Assembly: GCA_944351765.1 (NCBI GenBank)
Contig: CALVPR010000007.1
Location: forward strand, 1 to 45,631
Reading direction: 5' to 3'
DNA length: 45,631 bases
Source: an uncultured Bacilli bacterium
GTDB taxonomy: Bacteria > Bacillota_I > Bacilli_A > RF39 > UBA660
A program made the position numbers and the translations under genes. The notes beneath the pieces were generated by a model. It worked only from the letters and a program-made list of their open reading frames with translations. It was not told the DNA's origin and did not search any database. Below, one piece after another: positions 2,166 through 14,822 of this stretch (positions are counted from its first letter, which is position 1; each line of letters starts with the position of its first letter).

Positions 2166-3365
2166 TTAATTTTTATCTAATAACCAATCCACTACATTCA
2201 TTTTTTTTATACCATCATAATCAGTCTCTAAATCCATATCCAAAGTTAACAATATTTTAGGATAATAATCCCCTGTTTTTTGTAGGGATTTCAATTCTCT
2301 TTCTAAAATCTTATCATCTCTTACTGTTAATGCAACTTGATAATATTTTAATCCATCTCTATTTTCTGCTACAAAATCAACTTCTAAATCATCTACTTTA
2401 CCAACATATACTTTATATCCCCTTCTAAGTAATTCAAGATATACAATATTTTCTAATATATGCCCCATATCACTATCAGCTTTTTTCCCAAGTAAATAAC
2501 TTCTTAATCCAGGATCTACTACATAATATTTATAATCTCTTACTAATAAATTTTTCCTTTTAACATCAAATCTTTCTGCTTTATATATTAAAAAGCTTTC
2601 TAAAAATGCTGTTATGTAATTTTCTACAGTATGATTACTTGTTAACATACCTTTACTTGTTAATGTATCACTTATTCTCTTTGTTGATATAGGACTTCCT
2701 ATGCTATCAAATATAAACTTTAATATACTTTCAAGTAACATTTTATCATTTATATTATTTCTGGCCATTATGTCTTTATAAACTATTGTAGAAAATATTC
2801 CATCGAAATATTTATCTATATCATTCGGATTAGTTTTTAATATACTTATATTTCCTGGCATTCCACCATTCTTCATATAATTTAAAAATAATTGCACATA
2901 ATTTTTATCATCAAATGCTGTTATATATTCTTTAAATGATAATGGCAACATCTTTATTTCTACATATCTACCCGATAATAATGTTGCAAGTTCACCAGAT
3001 AAAAGATAAGCATTAGAGCCAGTTATATAAACATCTATATTCTTTTTTATATATAATCCATCCACTGCTTTTTGAAAACTATCTACAACTTGGACTTCAT
3101 CTAAAAACACGTAATATTTTTCATTGTCAACTATTTTTTCTTTAACATAATTATATAATTCTTTATAACCTTCAAAAGTATAGTCTGGTGATTCTAAATT
3201 AATTGATATTATATGATCATCTTTTATTCCTTCATTTTTTAAATATTTTATAAATAATTCAAATAAAGTAGATTTACCACATCTTCTTATACCAGTTACT
3301 ACTTTTATCAAATCTTTATCCTTCCATCTTTTTAATTCATCAAGATATTCAGTTCTCTCTATCAT
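2166..3365 (-). CDS. AAA ATPase with DUF4143-type C-terminal domain (paralog 1)
   Basis: The N-terminal AAA_14 P-loop domain has Walker A GIRRCGKST at residues 25-33, Walker B FLDEVQ at 87-92 and a TGSNAYLLSGELA sensor-type segment at about 115-127. A winged-helix-like middle is followed by a C-terminal PD-(D/E)XK-like fold (VDDLEVDF ... YYQVA). In that fold the usual E-x-K is Q-V-A, so nuclease activity is doubtful. The start has a good RBS (AGAGGTGAAAAT). It is closely related to the protein at 5123-6313, with nearly the same N-terminus and sensor motif. Cellular role is unknown for this large, widespread family; nothing in the sequence names a substrate. Two inverted repeats lie in its 5' region. 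Confidence 0.85.
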   Translation of the reverse strand: MIERTEYLDELKRWKDKDLIKVVTGIRRCGKSTLFELFIKYLKNEGIKDDHIISINLESPDYTFEGYKELYNYVKEKIVDNEKYYVFLDEVQVVDSFQKAVDGLYIKKNIDVYITGSNAYLLSGELATLLSGRYVEIKMLPLSFKEYITAFDDKNYVQLFLNYMKNGGMPGNISILKTNPNDIDKYFDGIFSTIVYKDIMARNNINDKMLLESILKFIFDSIGSPISTKRISDTLTSKGMLTSNHTVENYITAFLESFLIYKAERFDVKRKNLLVRDYKYYVVDPGLRSYLLGKKADSDMGHILENIVYLELLRRGYKVYVGKVDDLEVDFVAENRDGLKYYQVALTVRDDKILERELKSLQKTGDYYPKILLTLDMDLETDYDGIKKMNVVDWLLDKN

Positions 3366-5122: not shown

Positions 5123-6313
5123 TTATTTATCTAGTAACCAATCTAATACATTTATTTGTTTTATACCATTATGAGAAGTATATGGCGTATTATCCATAGT
5201 TAATAAATATTTAGGATTATGATCATTGATACTCTCTAAACTATTTAATTCTCTATTTAATGTCTTTTCGTCTCTTACAGTATATGCTACTTGATAGTAT
5301 TCTGTACCCTTTTCATTTATACAAATAAAGTCTACTTCCTTATCATCCACTTTACCTATATATACTTCATATCCCCTTCTTTTTAATTCTAAATAAACAA
5401 TATTTTCAAGAATATGCCCTTCATCAGCTTTCTTACTACCAAGTAAATAATAACGAAGTCCTATATCTGATAAATAATATTTAACACCGCTTGTTAAATA
5501 TTGTTTTCCCTTTATATCATATCTACTTACTTTATATAAAACGAAAGCATCTACTAAAGCATTTAAATAACTTTCTACTGTAGGAACTGATATTTTTTTA
5601 CCAGCACTAGTTAAAGTATTGGCAATATTTGTACTAGAACATACATTTCCTACTATATCAAACATATATTTTATTACACTATCAAAGATTCCCATATCAG
5701 TTATATTTTTTCTTGTACTAATATCTTTAACCAATATAGATGTATATATACCTTCTAGGTAAGTTTTTATATCTTTAGTAGAGTTCAAACTCAAAGTATA
5801 AGGAAAAGAACTTTTAGTTATATAATCTATATATTTCCTAGACAAATCATTATCTCCAACATAAGATATATATTCCTTAAATGATAAAGGTAACATTTTT
5901 ATTTCTACATATCTACCTGATAAAAATGTAGCAAGTTCTCCCGATAATAAATAAGCATTAGACCCAGTTATATATAAATCTACATTCTTCTTTATATATA
6001 AACTATCGCATGCCTTTTCAAAACCATCTACTCTTTGAACTTCATCTAAAAAAACATAATTTTTTTTATTTGGATTTAATTTTTCTTTAATATAATTATA
6101 TAAATCTTTATAATTTTCTATAAAATCATAGTCAGCATCTTCTAAATTAATACGTATTATTTGATCATCTTCCACACCATTTTTCAACAAATATTCTATA
6201 TATAAATCAAACAAAGTTGATTTACCACATCTTCTTATTCCTGTAACCACTTTTATTAAATCTTTATCTTTAAAACTTATTAATTCTTCTAAATATTCCG
6301 GTCTATTTATCAT
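5123..6313 (-). CDS. AAA ATPase with DUF4143-type C-terminal domain (paralog 2)
   Basis: The architecture is the same as the 2166-3365 protein: Walker A GIRRCGKST near the N-terminus, Walker B FLDEVQ, the TGSNAYLLSGELATFLSG sensor segment, and a C-terminal VDDKEVDF ... YYQVAYTV segment where the nuclease-type E-x-K is again Q-V-A. The ATG at 6313 is preferred because GAGGAGTGGTGAA precedes it with good spacing. An upstream in-frame ATG at 6343 lies between the promoter elements and the RBS and is unlikely to be used. The resulting protein is 396 residues. A strong promoter lies directly upstream. The function is unknown. Confidence 0.85.
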   Translation of the reverse strand: MINRPEYLEELISFKDKDLIKVVTGIRRCGKSTLFDLYIEYLLKNGVEDDQIIRINLEDADYDFIENYKDLYNYIKEKLNPNKKNYVFLDEVQRVDGFEKACDSLYIKKNVDLYITGSNAYLLSGELATFLSGRYVEIKMLPLSFKEYISYVGDNDLSRKYIDYITKSSFPYTLSLNSTKDIKTYLEGIYTSILVKDISTRKNITDMGIFDSVIKYMFDIVGNVCSSTNIANTLTSAGKKISVPTVESYLNALVDAFVLYKVSRYDIKGKQYLTSGVKYYLSDIGLRYYLLGSKKADEGHILENIVYLELKRRGYEVYIGKVDDKEVDFICINEKGTEYYQVAYTVRDEKTLNRELNSLESINDHNPKYLLTMDNTPYTSHNGIKQINVLDWLLDK

Positions 6314-6333
6314 TTTCACCACTCCTCGTATAA

Positions 6334-6362
6334 ATTTTATCATACAACTTATTATACGTCAA
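6334..6362 (-). promoter_or_regulatory. Predicted sigma-A promoter of ATPase paralog 2
   Basis: On the minus strand TTGACG and TAAAAT are separated by exactly 17 bp. Transcription would begin near 6327, leaving a short leader carrying GAGGAG before the ATG at 6313. This also argues against the longer start at 6343. Confidence 0.65.
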
Positions 6363-6458: not shown

Positions 6459-7721
6459 CTAATTTTTTAAATTCCCTATTGAAACAACATATACTCCATC
6501 TTCACGTACATACGATAATCCAGCCCCACTTAAGACAAGTAAAAATGAAGGCTCACCACTTTTTTTAACATCAACTTTTTCTTTAAATTTTTTTAAATTT
6601 GTAGCAGCTTCTTCCACTTGCTTTGCACCTAATTTTACTTCAACAGCTCCCCATTTACCATCTTCACATCTTAATATAAAATCTATTTCAAAATCTTTAT
6701 TATCTCTATAATAAAATAATTCAGCCCCCAAAGAATCAGCATATATTTTTAAATCCCTATAACACATATTTTCAAATATAAATCCTGTAAAATTTAAATC
6801 ATTTATTAAATCTTCTTTCTTTAATCCCAAAGATGCAATTACGATAGAAGGATCTACTAATTCTATTTTAGGATTAGTTCTTAATTGTATTGATGATCTT
6901 AAATTTAAATTTGTAGCAGGAACATATTCTAATACAAACAGTTTTTCTAATGTAGTTAAATAATCATCTACTGTTGGTCTAGATATTTCTTCTTTAAAAA
7001 TAGTTGATATGTCATTTATTATTGTTTTTTTATTCGTTGATGTAGAAACATTTCTACTTACGCTTTTTAATAAAGACTCCATCTTTATTTTATCTCTTTC
7101 TACACCATCTACTGTTCTAATTTCTTCATTAATTAAACTTTGAACATATTCTTTAGATACTTTAAATTTATTATCGCCACTTATATTTAATGATTCCGGC
7201 CATCCACCTCTTACCATAACATTTATAATATCTTCTAATTCAAGATTAGATACACCAGATACTTCTTTACCATCAATAATATCTTTTAAAGAAACTAATC
7301 CATTAGAATCACCTGATTCATATAATGACATAGTTCTCATAAGTAATTTAGAAATTCTTCCAGTTCCTGTATGCATAATTCCATTTTCTACTGGTTTTGC
7401 TGATCCTGTCAATATATATTGCCCTTTTTCCCCAGTACGGTCAACATCAGTTCTAATAGAATCCCATATAACAGGATACATTTGCCATTCATCAAATAAT
7501 CTTGGCTTTTCACCTTCTAAAAATAACGATGGTTTAGTTTCACTAATATTATCGTATTGAATTTTTTTATCTGGATCCTGTAACTCTATTACGCTCTTAC
7601 TAAACTGTTTAGCAGTAGTTGACTTTCCACACCATTTAGGCCCTTCTATTACAACAGCTCCCATATATTCTAACTTATTTTTTAAAATACTATCTACAAT
7701 TCTAGGTAAATACTTTTTCAT
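6459..7721 (-). CDS. Divergent AAA ATPase with DUF4143-type nuclease-like domain
   Basis: This is a 420-residue P-loop protein of the same superfamily as its neighbours but of another branch. Walker A reads GPKWCGKSTTA near residue 26, the Walker B region is RLFDEWQ, and the sensor segment is ILTGSAKP. The C-terminal domain keeps an intact nuclease-type core, FEIDFILR followed by AVEVKLG (D, then E-x-K), unlike the Q-V-A/T of the three other ATPases here. The start has TAGGAG upstream. The gene is bracketed by direct repeats derived from a reverse transcriptase 3' end (6384-6428 and 7833-7877), which suggests it moved or was duplicated as a unit. Its role is unknown. Confidence 0.85.
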   Translation of the reverse strand: MKKYLPRIVDSILKNKLEYMGAVVIEGPKWCGKSTTAKQFSKSVIELQDPDKKIQYDNISETKPSLFLEGEKPRLFDEWQMYPVIWDSIRTDVDRTGEKGQYILTGSAKPVENGIMHTGTGRISKLLMRTMSLYESGDSNGLVSLKDIIDGKEVSGVSNLELEDIINVMVRGGWPESLNISGDNKFKVSKEYVQSLINEEIRTVDGVERDKIKMESLLKSVSRNVSTSTNKKTIINDISTIFKEEISRPTVDDYLTTLEKLFVLEYVPATNLNLRSSIQLRTNPKIELVDPSIVIASLGLKKEDLINDLNFTGFIFENMCYRDLKIYADSLGAELFYYRDNKDFEIDFILRCEDGKWGAVEVKLGAKQVEEAATNLKKFKEKVDVKKSGEPSFLLVLSGAGLSYVREDGVYVVSIGNLKN

Positions 7722-7742: not shown

Positions 7743-7771
7743 ATTATAATATATTTTTTGAAAAAAGTAAA
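7743..7771 (-). promoter_or_regulatory. Predicted sigma-A promoter of the divergent ATPase
   Basis: On the minus strand TTTACT, 17 bp and TATAAT lie about 15-25 nt before the TAGGAG RBS of the gene at 6459-7721. Confidence 0.6.
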
Positions 7772-7777
7772 TGTTTA

Positions 7778-7816
7778 TTTTACATTTTGTACTATTTTCA
7801 TTTTACATTTTGTACT
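7778..7816. promoter_or_regulatory. Two 16-bp direct boxes, 23-bp period, upstream of a promoter
   Basis: The sequence ttttacattttgtact occurs at 7778-7793 and again, unchanged, at 7801-7816. The 23-bp period is about two helical turns. The boxes end just upstream of the -35 element of the ATPase at 6459-7721, a placement typical of activator sites or UP-like elements. Confidence 0.5.
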
Positions 7817-7825
7817 TTTTTCACT

Positions 7826-8230
7826 TTAAGTTTTATTATAACTATTAATACTAGAATAATAACTTTTATAACTAATATAACCATTACTATATAAATAATC
7901 CTTTTTCTTAATATTTCTTTTTATTCTCTTTCTTTTATCACTAGTAATATTAACTATAGTTTTATTATTAATTAATCTATACCTACTACCTAAAAATATA
8001 AAACCATGTTTTATATTAACTATCATACTCTTCTTTTTATTTAACTTTAATTTATATTCTTTATCTAATTTATCTTCTATAACTTTATATACATATTTTA
8101 AATACTCTTTGTCATGATGTATTAATATAAAATCATCTACATATCTAATATAATGCTTAATATGTAAATTATTAATTATATAATGGTCTAACTTATATAA
8201 ATAAAATATATTTATTCTAATAGAATAAGT
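7826..8230 (-). pseudogene. 5'-truncated reverse transcriptase (palm end and C-terminus only)
   Basis: An open frame of 134 codons without an early start encodes the second half of a reverse transcriptase. It contains YKLDHYI, then IRYVDDFILI with the catalytic YVDD at 8132-8143, then a Lys-rich thumb region, GFIFLGSRYRL, KRKRIKRNIKK and a final YISYKSYY segment. This order (YxDD, FLG-x-R/Y, basic helix, Y-x-x-Y tail) fits DGR-like or other group-II-related bacterial RTs. Fingers and the first palm motifs are missing: a TAA closes the frame at 8231-8233 and an oppositely oriented XRE gene starts at 8276. An internal ATG at 8026 gives only 66 residues. It lies 0.5 kb downstream of a protein with a DGR-like variable region. 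Confidence 0.85.
7833..7877 (-). repeat. Direct repeat, right copy: end of the RT remnant
   Basis: This is the partner of 6384-6428 (43 of 45 bases identical). It covers the last codons of the truncated reverse transcriptase. The two copies flank the ATPase gene at 6459-7721. Confidence 0.8.
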
Positions 8231-8275: not shown

Positions 8276-8581
8276 ATGTATAATAATTTAATAAAAAGAA
8301 GAATAGAATTAGGAATAAAGAGAAATGATATGGCTAGAATACTAGGGTATAGTTTGTCTCATTACTCAAACATTGAAAATGGGATAAAAGCATTACATAT
8401 AAGAGAATTATATAAACTATCTTATATATTAAATGTTGATGATATGTATATTACAGGTTTAATAGATGAACCTATACCATTAAATAAGTATAAAAGAGAA
8501 TGTATTAAAAAACATTATAATTTAGACGATAATGCTATTAAAAAACTATATGGAAAAGATGTATATGATATCACAAAATAA
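8276..8581 (+). CDS. Small XRE/Cro-type helix-turn-helix regulator
   Basis: The protein has 101 residues. A helix-turn-helix domain covers about residues 3-60: LIKRRIELGIKRNDMARILGY, then SLSHYSNIENG as recognition helix, then LYKLSYILNVDD. The C-terminal 40 residues are charged, with no known effector domain. It is the only plus-strand gene in the first 25 kb. No good Shine-Dalgarno precedes the ATG, so the transcript may be nearly leaderless. It stands where the first half of the reverse transcriptase would be, and palindromic TAGAATAA sites precede it. It may control itself and the neighbouring minus-strand genes. Confidence 0.8.
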   Translation: MYNNLIKRRIELGIKRNDMARILGYSLSHYSNIENGIKALHIRELYKLSYILNVDDMYITGLIDEPIPLNKYKRECIKKHYNLDDNAIKKLYGKDVYDITK

Positions 8582-8594
8582 TTTCTAATTCTAA

Positions 8595-8630
8595 AAACCA
8601 ATGTACTTTAAAAGCACATTGGTTTCTTTT
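8595..8630. terminator. Bidirectional terminator hairpin
   Basis: The arms aaaccaatgt and acattggttt pair around a short A/T loop, with T-runs on both sides (ttctttt on plus, tttttag on minus). It closes the XRE gene and can also end the transcript of the surface protein. Confidence 0.7.
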
Positions 8631-8642
8631 CCACAAGGCTTA

Positions 8643-8706
8643 CCTAGAGAAACATAAATGTTTCCCTAGGATGAGGAATAGAAGACTTACGCCTTCTATA
8701 TTCCTC
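8643..8706. other. Two tandem hairpins just after the variable region
   Basis: Hairpin one, 8673-8706, pairs gaggaatagaag with cttctatattcctc (12-bp stem, 2-nt bulge, 8-nt loop). It lies 14 bp past the stop codon of the surface protein. Hairpin two, 8643-8670, pairs cctagagaaacat with atgtttccctagg (13 bp, one mismatch, 2-nt loop) and has no T-run on either strand. The first could serve as a plus-strand terminator because TTTTTT follows it. Both also fit the place where DGR targets carry a structure needed for homing. Confidence 0.55.
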
Positions 8707-8720
8707 TTTTTTGTTTATTG

Positions 8721-10055
8721 TTAATTTAAAGTAAACGGATTTCCAAAAGTCCCATCTCCACCAGTAATTTCTACTGTTGATGCTAGATAAAGGACTGGGG
8801 AAGCGGAGTAGTTGGAGTTGTTCGCGCTGAAGCTGTAAACGACACCTGTCGTGTTCACATAAAAGACGAGATTCGAGAGACTGGAGAGCGGAGTAATGGT
8901 CCACTGGTATAAACTAGAATTATATAAATAATCATTATTTTTACAATCACTATAACTGGAACTATCCCAACTAAATAATTCTTTTGCTAAACAAGATGCT
9001 CTATTTGTGATTGTTCCACCACTTGTGGCATATCCATAGTCTGATAGATACATTAATCCTATTTTACCTACCCAATATGTCGGACGGCCACTATATACTG
9101 TTGTTCCTCTTTCATAACCATAAAAGTGACTAGCAAGTCCATCAGATGAACTTGCATAGGTTGCGGTTCCACCTAGATTCCAATAAGTGTCTCCTATAAG
9201 GCTTTGAGATATAGAATCCAAACTATTATAATAGTCTCCATTCAAGTAAGTTTGTAATGAAGCAGATGTCCAGTTATTTGTATTAGCGCTATCCCATGCC
9301 ATTTTACCTAACGACTCATTTCTTATTATTTTAAGTCTTTTTTCTAATTGACCATTCTCACTAGACTTTACATCAAATACTCCGATTATTCTCCATAATT
9401 CATTATTAAATGATACATAGTTATTAGGATCTGCTCCCATATATCTTACATTACCATCAGGGTCATCATTATTCATTGTAGTGGGATTACTTGCGAGTAA
9501 TGATTCTATATAATCTGCCCCAGTTACATACTCACTTCCTACCCCATCAGTTACTATCTTGGCACTAAAACTCTTCCCTATTTCTGTATTTGGTGTATCT
9601 ATACTTAACCATATTCTAACTGACATAGTTACTGAATCACTAGGGTTTAATGTTAAATCACTTGCTATTAATCCATTACTTAAACTAGATAAAGTAACAG
9701 GACTATTATCATCTAATTTTACTTTTATATAAGCAGGATTTATTTGATTACTAGTGGTAGTAGACAATAATTTTAAATCAAATGTATATGTTAAATTACC
9801 TGTGTTAGTTACTTTAAAAGTATACGGTGTTAATGCACTACCTTCTTCATCTGTCATAGGTAGAGTATTACTTAATGTTAAAGCTGTACCTTCTTCTACT
9901 GTTACATCAAGTATTCCTGAAGTATAACTTTCGGTATTATCTAATGTATTTACTTTCATAAATAATGCATAAGTTGTTGATAACATTATTGATAATACTA
10001 ATAATATTGATAATACTGTAATTATTGCTTTTTTGTTTGTAAATATCTTTTTCAT
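8721..10055 (-). CDS. SipW/TasA-type secreted protein with DGR-like variable C-terminus
   Basis: The ATG at 10055 (444 residues) is chosen over one six bases upstream, because AGGA lies six bases before it. A SipW-type signal segment (lysines, hydrophobic run, then TTYALF) leads into a CalY/TasA-like beta domain (GILDVTVEEG; FKVTNTGNLTYTFDL) to about residue 175. A second domain opens with YVSFNNELWRIIGVF and ends in PVLYLASTVEITGGDG. This resembles lectin-like ligand-binding domains that retroelements diversify. Codons 390-419 are mostly NNC and GC-rich, unlike the rest of the gene (see 8799-8888). A -35/-10 pair lies upstream, and a reverse transcriptase remnant downstream. The secretion call is firm, the DGR target call likely; the ligand is unknown. 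Confidence 0.8.
   Translation of the reverse strand: MKKIFTNKKAIITVLSILLVLSIMLSTTYALFMKVNTLDNTESYTSGILDVTVEEGTALTLSNTLPMTDEEGSALTPYTFKVTNTGNLTYTFDLKLLSTTTSNQINPAYIKVKLDDNSPVTLSSLSNGLIASDLTLNPSDSVTMSVRIWLSIDTPNTEIGKSFSAKIVTDGVGSEYVTGADYIESLLASNPTTMNNDDPDGNVRYMGADPNNYVSFNNELWRIIGVFDVKSSENGQLEKRLKIIRNESLGKMAWDSANTNNWTSASLQTYLNGDYYNSLDSISQSLIGDTYWNLGGTATYASSSDGLASHFYGYERGTTVYSGRPTYWVGKIGLMYLSDYGYATSGGTITNRASCLAKELFSWDSSSYSDCKNNDYLYNSSLYQWTITPLSSLSNLVFYVNTTGVVYSFSANNSNYSASPVLYLASTVEITGGDGTFGNPFTLN
8799..8888 (-). other. Candidate DGR variable region (VR)
   Basis: Thirty consecutive codons contain 45 G/C of 90 bases, while the flanking gene and the window are about half that. Eighteen of the 30 codons end in C as NNC (CTC, TCC, GTC, AAC, TAC, AGC, TTC). 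These are the products expected when AAC codons of a template repeat are randomised at their adenines. The residues are mainly Ser, Asn, Leu, Val, Tyr, Phe and Ala. Both flanks (NSSLYQW before, PVLYL after) return to A/T-ending codons. No matching template repeat is visible in the window. Confidence 0.7.
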
Positions 10056-10085
10056 ATACATTCCTACTTTCTATTCTCTATTAAT

Positions 10086-13566: not shown

Positions 13567-14775
13567 TTATAGTATATCTTTGTTTAATAAGAAATCTATT
13601 AAATTTAAATGAATAATACCATTTCGTGATAAATCAACTTTATCAAGAGAAATAATATATTTAGGATAATTATCTTCAATTGACTTAAATGCTCCAAATT
13701 CTCTTTCAATAGTATTATCATTACCTTTCATTTCATAAGTTACTTGAATATATTTAATATTACCATCTTTTTTAGCTAAAAAATCTATTTCGCCATTTTT
13801 CGTTTTACCTATATATACTTCATAATTTCTATTTATTAATTCATTATAAACTATATTTTCTAAAACAACATAACTTTTAAATTCAGGATTATTATTTTTT
13901 ATTTGTGCTATTCCTAAATCAGTAGCATAATACTTATTTAATGTCTTTAATACACCTTTACCAGAAATATCATATCTATATACTTTTTTTAATATTAATG
14001 CTTTACATAAAGCATCAATATAGTTATATAATGTTTCATTTGATATTTTTTTATTTTCTTTATCTAAATATTTTACAATACTATCAGCAGAAAATTCACG
14101 ACCAGTAGTTTCAATTAAATATTGTAATATCATATCAAATAATACTGTATCTTTTAAATTAAGTCTCTTTACAACATCTCTTAAAATAATTGAATCATAT
14201 ACACTATGAAGATAATTTTTTATATCTATCTCATTTATAAATTCACATCTATTAGGAAGTCCACCCCATTTAGCATAATCCCAAAAAGTCTCTAAATCTT
14301 TTCCATCTTTATTGATTAGTAAAACATATTCTTTATAAGATAATGGATTAATATTAAATAAAACATATCTTCCTGATAAGACTGATGATAATTCATCTGA
14401 TAACATTTTACTATTTGATCCAGTTAAAAAGATACTTATATTTTTTATAGAAGCCCTAAGTGAATTAACTACTTTTTCAAAATTATCAACATTTTGTATT
14501 TCATCTAAAAATAAATAGTATATTTTTTCATCCTTAATTTTATCCTTTACATATTTATTAAGTTTTCTATAATCTAATAATTCTTCAAATTCAATGAATT
14601 CAAAATTAATAAATATTACATGTTCATCATCTATTTTTTTCTTTTCTTTTAGTTCTTCAATTATTTGGTTTAAAATAACTGATTTACCACATCTTCTTAT
14701 TCCTACTAATATTTTTATTAAATCGGAATCATAAAATCCTCTTATTTTAGATAAATAGTCTTCTCTTAATAACAT
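13567..14775 (-). CDS. AAA ATPase with DUF4143-type C-terminal domain (paralog 3)
   Basis: This is a 402-residue relative of the proteins at 2166-3365 and 5123-6313 but more divergent. It has Walker A GIRRCGKSVIL near residue 25, Walker B LFLDEIQ, and the sensor segment LTGSNSKMLSDELSSVLSG. The C-terminus has NGEIDFLAKKDG followed by YIQVTYE, so the nuclease-type E-x-K is Q-V-T. The ATG at 14775 follows AGAGGTGAT; an earlier in-frame ATG at 14802 lies in the promoter. A consensus-like promoter and an 11-bp inverted repeat precede it. The family's role is unknown. Confidence 0.85.
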   Translation of the reverse strand: MLLREDYLSKIRGFYDSDLIKILVGIRRCGKSVILNQIIEELKEKKKIDDEHVIFINFEFIEFEELLDYRKLNKYVKDKIKDEKIYYLFLDEIQNVDNFEKVVNSLRASIKNISIFLTGSNSKMLSDELSSVLSGRYVLFNINPLSYKEYVLLINKDGKDLETFWDYAKWGGLPNRCEFINEIDIKNYLHSVYDSIILRDVVKRLNLKDTVLFDMILQYLIETTGREFSADSIVKYLDKENKKISNETLYNYIDALCKALILKKVYRYDISGKGVLKTLNKYYATDLGIAQIKNNNPEFKSYVVLENIVYNELINRNYEVYIGKTKNGEIDFLAKKDGNIKYIQVTYEMKGNDNTIEREFGAFKSIEDNYPKYIISLDKVDLSRNGIIHLNLIDFLLNKDIL

Positions 14776-14793
14776 AGTAATCACCTCTATTAC

Positions 14794-14822
14794 ATTATAC
14801 ATTATTTGATAATAATTGTAAA
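14794..14822 (-). promoter_or_regulatory. Predicted sigma-A promoter of ATPase paralog 3
   Basis: On the minus strand TTTACA, 17 bp and TATAAT, with the RBS AGAGGTGA close after. Its -35 touches the arm of the hairpin at 14820-14849. Confidence 0.65.

Follow-up and report, generated by a model that had tools for sequence, protein, structure and literature searches.

A probable orphaned target of a diversity-generating retroelement in a surface protein gene of an uncultured gut Bacilli bacterium

The stretch at 8787-8897 of the window (the whole stretch of DNA analysed here, 45,631 nucleotides in length) is very probably the variable region (VR) of a target of a diversity-generating retroelement (DGR). 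The gene that carries it would, with good probability, represent a recently orphaned and fixed DGR variant, encoding a surface protein that is either secreted or anchored. Orphan status is most likely, save for a template repeat (TR) located in the unassembled ~7% of the genome. This genome comprises 1.29 Mb in 64 contigs, is 92.7% complete and has 24% GC. To the DGR origin proposed for this gene in an earlier note on the same DNA, the analysis adds a broken cassette, two targets in trans, two complete DGRs and paired hairpins. The features of the locus and of the DGRs used for comparison are collected in Table 1.

Table 1. Features of the window and gene content of the related DGRs.
Feature	Position	Strand	Description
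DGR target gene (probable)	8721..10061	-	446 aa; signal/TM helix, TasA/camelysin-like beta domain, DUF6273-like C-terminal domain
DUF6273-like C-terminal domain	about aa 175-446 of the window protein		VR at its end
Probable variable region (VR)	8787..8897	-	Core 8799-8888; GC-rich 3' end GCTTCCCCAGTCC, IMH-like
Hairpin 1	8673..8706	-	GAGGAATATAGAAG-GCGTAAGT-CTTCTATTCCTC; compensatory changes in relatives
Hairpin 2	8643..8670	-	CCTAGGGAAACAT-TT-ATGTTTCTCTAGG; compensatory changes in relatives
Terminator-like hairpin and T run after target	8595..8626	-	Present in L094 too
XRE/Cro-type HTH regulator	8276..8581	+	101 aa; L094 counterpart at the same place
Deletion scar	8194..8208	-	Single copy of the 15-mer TATTTTATTTATATA
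Reverse transcriptase (RT) remnant	7829..8215	-	129 aa; C-terminal third of a DGR RT; YVDD kept, motifs 1-4 lost; frame open
L094 (sister genus)			Gene order: target (-), XRE (+), then MutS-I-like, small ORF, TR, second MutS-I-like, Avd-like, RT, all (-)
C18 DGR (same genome)			RT, Avd-like gene, MutS_I-domain gene, TR, two targets
C32 DGR (same genome)			Target, TR, XRE gene, MutS-like gene, Avd-like gene, RT

Codons 392-421 of the target gene (8799-8888), to which the earlier note had attributed 18 NNC codons and 50% GC, have exactly these values on recount and rank first among the gene's 30-codon stretches, for which the median is 2 NNC codons and 32% GC. When the 37 ORFs of the window with at least 150 aa were compared, the runner-up stretch contained 8/30 NNC codons. 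With NNC accounting for 4% of codons overall, 18/30 would arise by chance with a binomial P of about 3e-18. Alignment to the intact relative L094 sets the limits of the VR slightly wider than this core, at about 8787-8897. As in known DGR targets, the VR is placed at the 3' end of the gene; its own end is GC-rich and IMH-like, and a hairpin follows downstream.

A search of the own genome with the VR DNA has revealed two paralogs of the region, on contigs C11 and C13, with 83% DNA identity. The targets to which they belong have the C-terminal domain in common with the window protein and differ from it in their N-terminal parts. In the alignment of the three copies, the differences fall at the NN of NNC codons and the remaining VR is nearly identical: the variable columns are distributed over codon positions 1, 2 and 3 as 15/13/1 in the VR versus 4/9/10 in the flanks (Fisher p=6e-4), and pairwise differences amount to 20-24/84 sites in the VR versus 15-17/219 in the flanks. 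Such variation, placed at the template-adenine positions (the NN of NNC) with third positions nearly fixed, is that of a DGR target.

The same domain is also present in two further paralogs, neither of them with a strong downstream hairpin. The one on C35 (G000:C35, L152) has 0 NNC codons, and the one on C37 (G000:C37, L155) has 7, is AT-drifted and looks like a former VR in drift. A syntenic ortholog of the window target, likewise adjoining a holA-like gene, is found in another genome (L038 2116-3432, G001:C61); its tip holds merely 1-2 NNC codons and hence no fresh DGR signature.

A locus in a sister genus (L094, in G235) is laid out as in the window, with an XRE gene that is near-identical to that of the window and stands in the same place. 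It is a complete DGR, with RT, Avd-like gene (E=6e-9, under curated NCBIfam/Pfam cut-offs), TR and VR, in which TR and VR mismatch at 18/33 template adenines and, apart from two bases at the 3' edge, at no non-A position. Coming from another genus, this TR was used as an independent predictor of the variable columns. Among the 28 columns that vary between the window's three copies and align to this TR, 25 coincide with a template A, versus 8/80 of the invariant columns (p=1.6e-14). This prediction is the strongest evidence for a DGR origin, and, together with the variation of the paralogs at codon positions 1 and 2, it bears out what the earlier note had proposed for this stretch. A remote, hairpin-tagged gene of G235 (L165) was also considered as an A-only copy of the L094 TR; the backbone is common to both, but indels and some non-A changes separate them, so that this gene is no proof of homing in trans in G235.

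The RT remnant that had been noticed near the target is real. It matches RVT_1 with E=1.4e-6, has an aa identity of 82-84% to intact or contig-edge relatives, and falls in a DGR RT clade with Avd and TR nearby, its closest RTs being those of G004:C14 (at a contig edge), G235:C3 and G109:C8. An extra 3' cut of the window RT was considered and dropped, as this RT clade naturally ends near ...SSINSYN. Beside the target, full-length RT and Avd are absent, and the C-terminal third of the RT remains.

The DNA alignment between the window and L094 runs from 9455 to 8189 of the window, jumps to 4438 of L094, and resumes in the window from 8209 to 7818. Of the 15-mer at the scar, L094 has two copies (6715 and 4437), whereas the window retains a single one, which lies at the junction. 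According to this jump and to the single 15-mer, about 2.3 kb have been deleted between short direct repeats; the corresponding segment between the L094 repeats encodes both MutS-I-like genes, the TR, Avd, and the N-terminus (first two thirds) of the RT. Given the 64-contig, 92.7%-complete assembly, the deletion could be a single population variant or an assembly join. The open frame of the remnant, its pN/pS of 0.22-0.29 versus intact or contig-edge relatives, and the unameliorated NNC codons in a genome of 24% GC suggest that the loss is recent.

Related damage is present elsewhere in the genus: of the RT, G003 retains a short remnant and G006 a shortened form, in both cases beside a transposase-like gene. 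At L061 3774-5424 and L057 3188-4861, in two species of the genus other than that of the window, a shortened RT of the same clade stands beside a transposase-like gene, as if this DGR lineage decayed repeatedly. In the window, a direct repeat around GTACAAAATGTAAAATG (7760-7830) separates the RT remnant from the gene that follows, and the surroundings of the locus are dense in ATPase-type ORFs, four of them, of related kinds, being placed at 2166-3365, 5123-6343, 6459-7721, and 13567-14802. One more such ORF is found beside the C11 target and one beside the C18 DGR.

Hairpins located 3' of VRs are a known feature of DGRs. In all three targets, two hairpins directly follow the stop codon, and the 18-base core of hairpin 1 has exactly three copies in the genome, one after each target. 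This core occurs in few other genomes of the family, with two copies in G235, both after a target. Within the hairpins, six predicted pairs exhibit two-sided changes that preserve pairing, and across the collected target loci hairpins are associated with NNC codons with p=1.3e-6, a value partly confounded by terminators and relatedness. The paired hairpins probably mark the recipient sites of remote targets, and would act there in homing. It can be proposed, as a speculation somewhat against the odds, that they are transferable address tags, in such a way that a surface gene gaining a DUF6273-like domain plus the hairpins would become a trans target of one DGR; these small-genome Bacilli would by this means maintain an array of differently anchored, hypervariable surface proteins, repeatedly losing and swapping the engine and retaining the repertoire that it made.

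An A-tolerant scan found no TR inside the window, and BLAST-type searches with the inferred TR and the L094 TR found none for the window VR in the own assembly, so the template of this VR was inferred from the relative. When the own genome and the genus were searched with the same two sequences, the matches consisted only of targets and of the TRs of other DGRs. The earlier note had offered a whole-genome search for the template as a check on its proposal: the assembly holds no such TR, but its absence does not refute the DGR origin, because the deletion scar explains it.

Matches to RVT_1 in the own genome are found on C32, on C18, and in the window. Both C18 and C32 hold complete DGRs, with RT, Avd-like gene (E-values of 3e-11 and 9e-5, respectively, both under curated NCBIfam/Pfam cut-offs), TR, and VR with A-only mismatches; in the A-tolerant scan, their TR/VR pairs differ at up to 12-14 sites, and in the best stretches every mismatch falls on a template A. 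The presence of these two DGRs in the same genome makes the organism a DGR host, and the mechanism does not need to be imported by analogy. The exact VR-backbone pattern has no match in IMG/VR. There is no sign of a phage origin either, since the L094 RT has no match in IMG/VR and a tblastn search of 50,697 phage records with the window domain found nothing. In L056 and L030, DGR cassettes are flanked by targets on both sides, and in L056 the MutS-I-like gene and the Avd-like gene are apparently both present in duplicate.

In the mechanism proposed here, RT, TR, and accessory genes would once have adjoined the window target. Reverse transcription of a template RNA with many AAC codons would have introduced errors at adenines, and the resulting cDNA, homing in trans as well, would have replaced the 3' ends of the window gene and of the remote C11 and C13 targets, providing each protein with a different tip, presumably for ligand binding, while the paired hairpins 3' of the stop codons would have marked the recipient sites. 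Recombination between the two 15-bp repeats would then have removed both MutS-I-like genes together with the TR, Avd, and the N-terminal part of the RT, probably with no other TR left.

Two other explanations have been weighed. Diversification of the VR could be ongoing, driven by a TR and RT that the assembly lacks or by an intact cassette carried by other cells in the population. The missing ~7% of the genome and the 64 contigs leave room for this, the identity of the non-adenine VR positions and of the first hairpins in the three targets speaks for it, and in G004 an RT of the same clade is cut at a contig edge and its target stands close to the end of a different contig, as though assemblies tended to break at DGR loci. 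It is nevertheless unlikely, as searches of the own genome with the inferred and the real TRs give nothing but targets and TRs that belong to other DGRs, the remnant is the sole representative of the matching RT clade, and the scar is clean. Far less credible still, and strongly disfavoured, is that the NNC stretch was imported from a higher-GC donor or shuffled among paralogs under diversifying selection. Such an origin would account for the abrupt change in GC content and codon use, and the domain has many paralogs that could serve it; however, the variation lies on template adenines, with nearly none at third positions, the non-A positions are identical in the three loci (import would not limit the differences to the NN of NNC), and two clear DGRs in the genome act likewise on the same domain type. 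The orphaned target thus remains the preferred explanation.

The C-terminal domain of the window protein is DUF6273-like, an established DGR-target domain. What the earlier note had described as a lectin-like last domain corresponds to a marginal match to DUF6273 (PF19789), with 23.4 bits versus a gathering cut-off of 23.5, and the orthologous target of L094 scores above this cut-off (26.8 bits). The AlphaFold model of the target (pLDDT 84) has its best PDB match in 9qa6, an IgA peptidase of Thomasclavelia whose N-terminal domain is a DUF6273 (PMC12402451), and viral DUF6273 proteins match as well. The structural matches are to DUF6273 proteins, and no direct match to Mtd or TvpA is present among the matches listed. 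DUF6273 has been reported as a DGR target domain of gut phages (tentaclins), with a fold described as C-lectin-like (PMC10743442), and in Faecalibacterium prophages the VR is located at its C-terminus (PMC11792537).

The SipW/TasA type to which the protein had been assigned fares less well. The N-terminus scores 18.4 bits against the camelysin/TasA family PF12389, below the threshold of 22.5, but a SipW-type signal peptidase is encoded in the genome, on another contig, with none adjoining the target; a TasA/SipW-type N-terminus is plausible, if weakly supported. No paper joining DGRs with SipW or TasA was found in the literature searched.

These results document DGRs encoded by the cells themselves in gut Bacilli that are uncultured and have reduced genomes. 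Several DGR lineages share a genome, and several secreted proteins have one domain in common. The decayed locus and its intact counterpart form a before-and-after pair for DGR loss, and the hairpins common to the targets make the marking of remote DGR targets a testable question. Surveys requiring a TR beside the RT would overlook all three targets.

Similar to DGRs of the BPP-1 type, the system described here exhibits A-directed TR-to-VR substitution, a C-terminal VR, an Avd-like gene, a DGR-type RT, and a hairpin after the target. In contrast, the window has lost the TR, Avd, and the N-terminus of the RT by deletion, a divergent XRE gene and a pair of MutS-I-like genes form part of the cassette, and further targets are present in trans on the chromosome. 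In Treponema denticola, one DGR type serves several scattered targets, which persist where RT and TR have been lost (PMC4891356). Both traits are shared with the present case, whereas the phylum is another, the targets are lipoproteins, and the accessory is HRDC; for the window, moreover, the deletion junction has been resolved to a 15-bp repeat. The DUF6273 targets of phages (PMC10743442, PMC11792537) also carry their VR in this domain and are structurally matched by the window protein. The latter, by contrast, is cellular, and joins the domain to N-terminal modules of a secreted or anchored kind. TasA and camelysin resemble this protein in having a beta domain preceded by an N-terminal signal helix, in the sub-threshold match to PF12389, and in the SipW-type peptidase encoded in the genome, but adjacency to sipW is missing here and TasA has no hypervariable C-terminal domain. 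DGRs, remote targets, and left-over targets were already known (PMC4891356, PMC8144416); what is new is the type of carrier, the clean deletion that orphans a DGR target, and the hairpin pair common to three targets with different N-termini.
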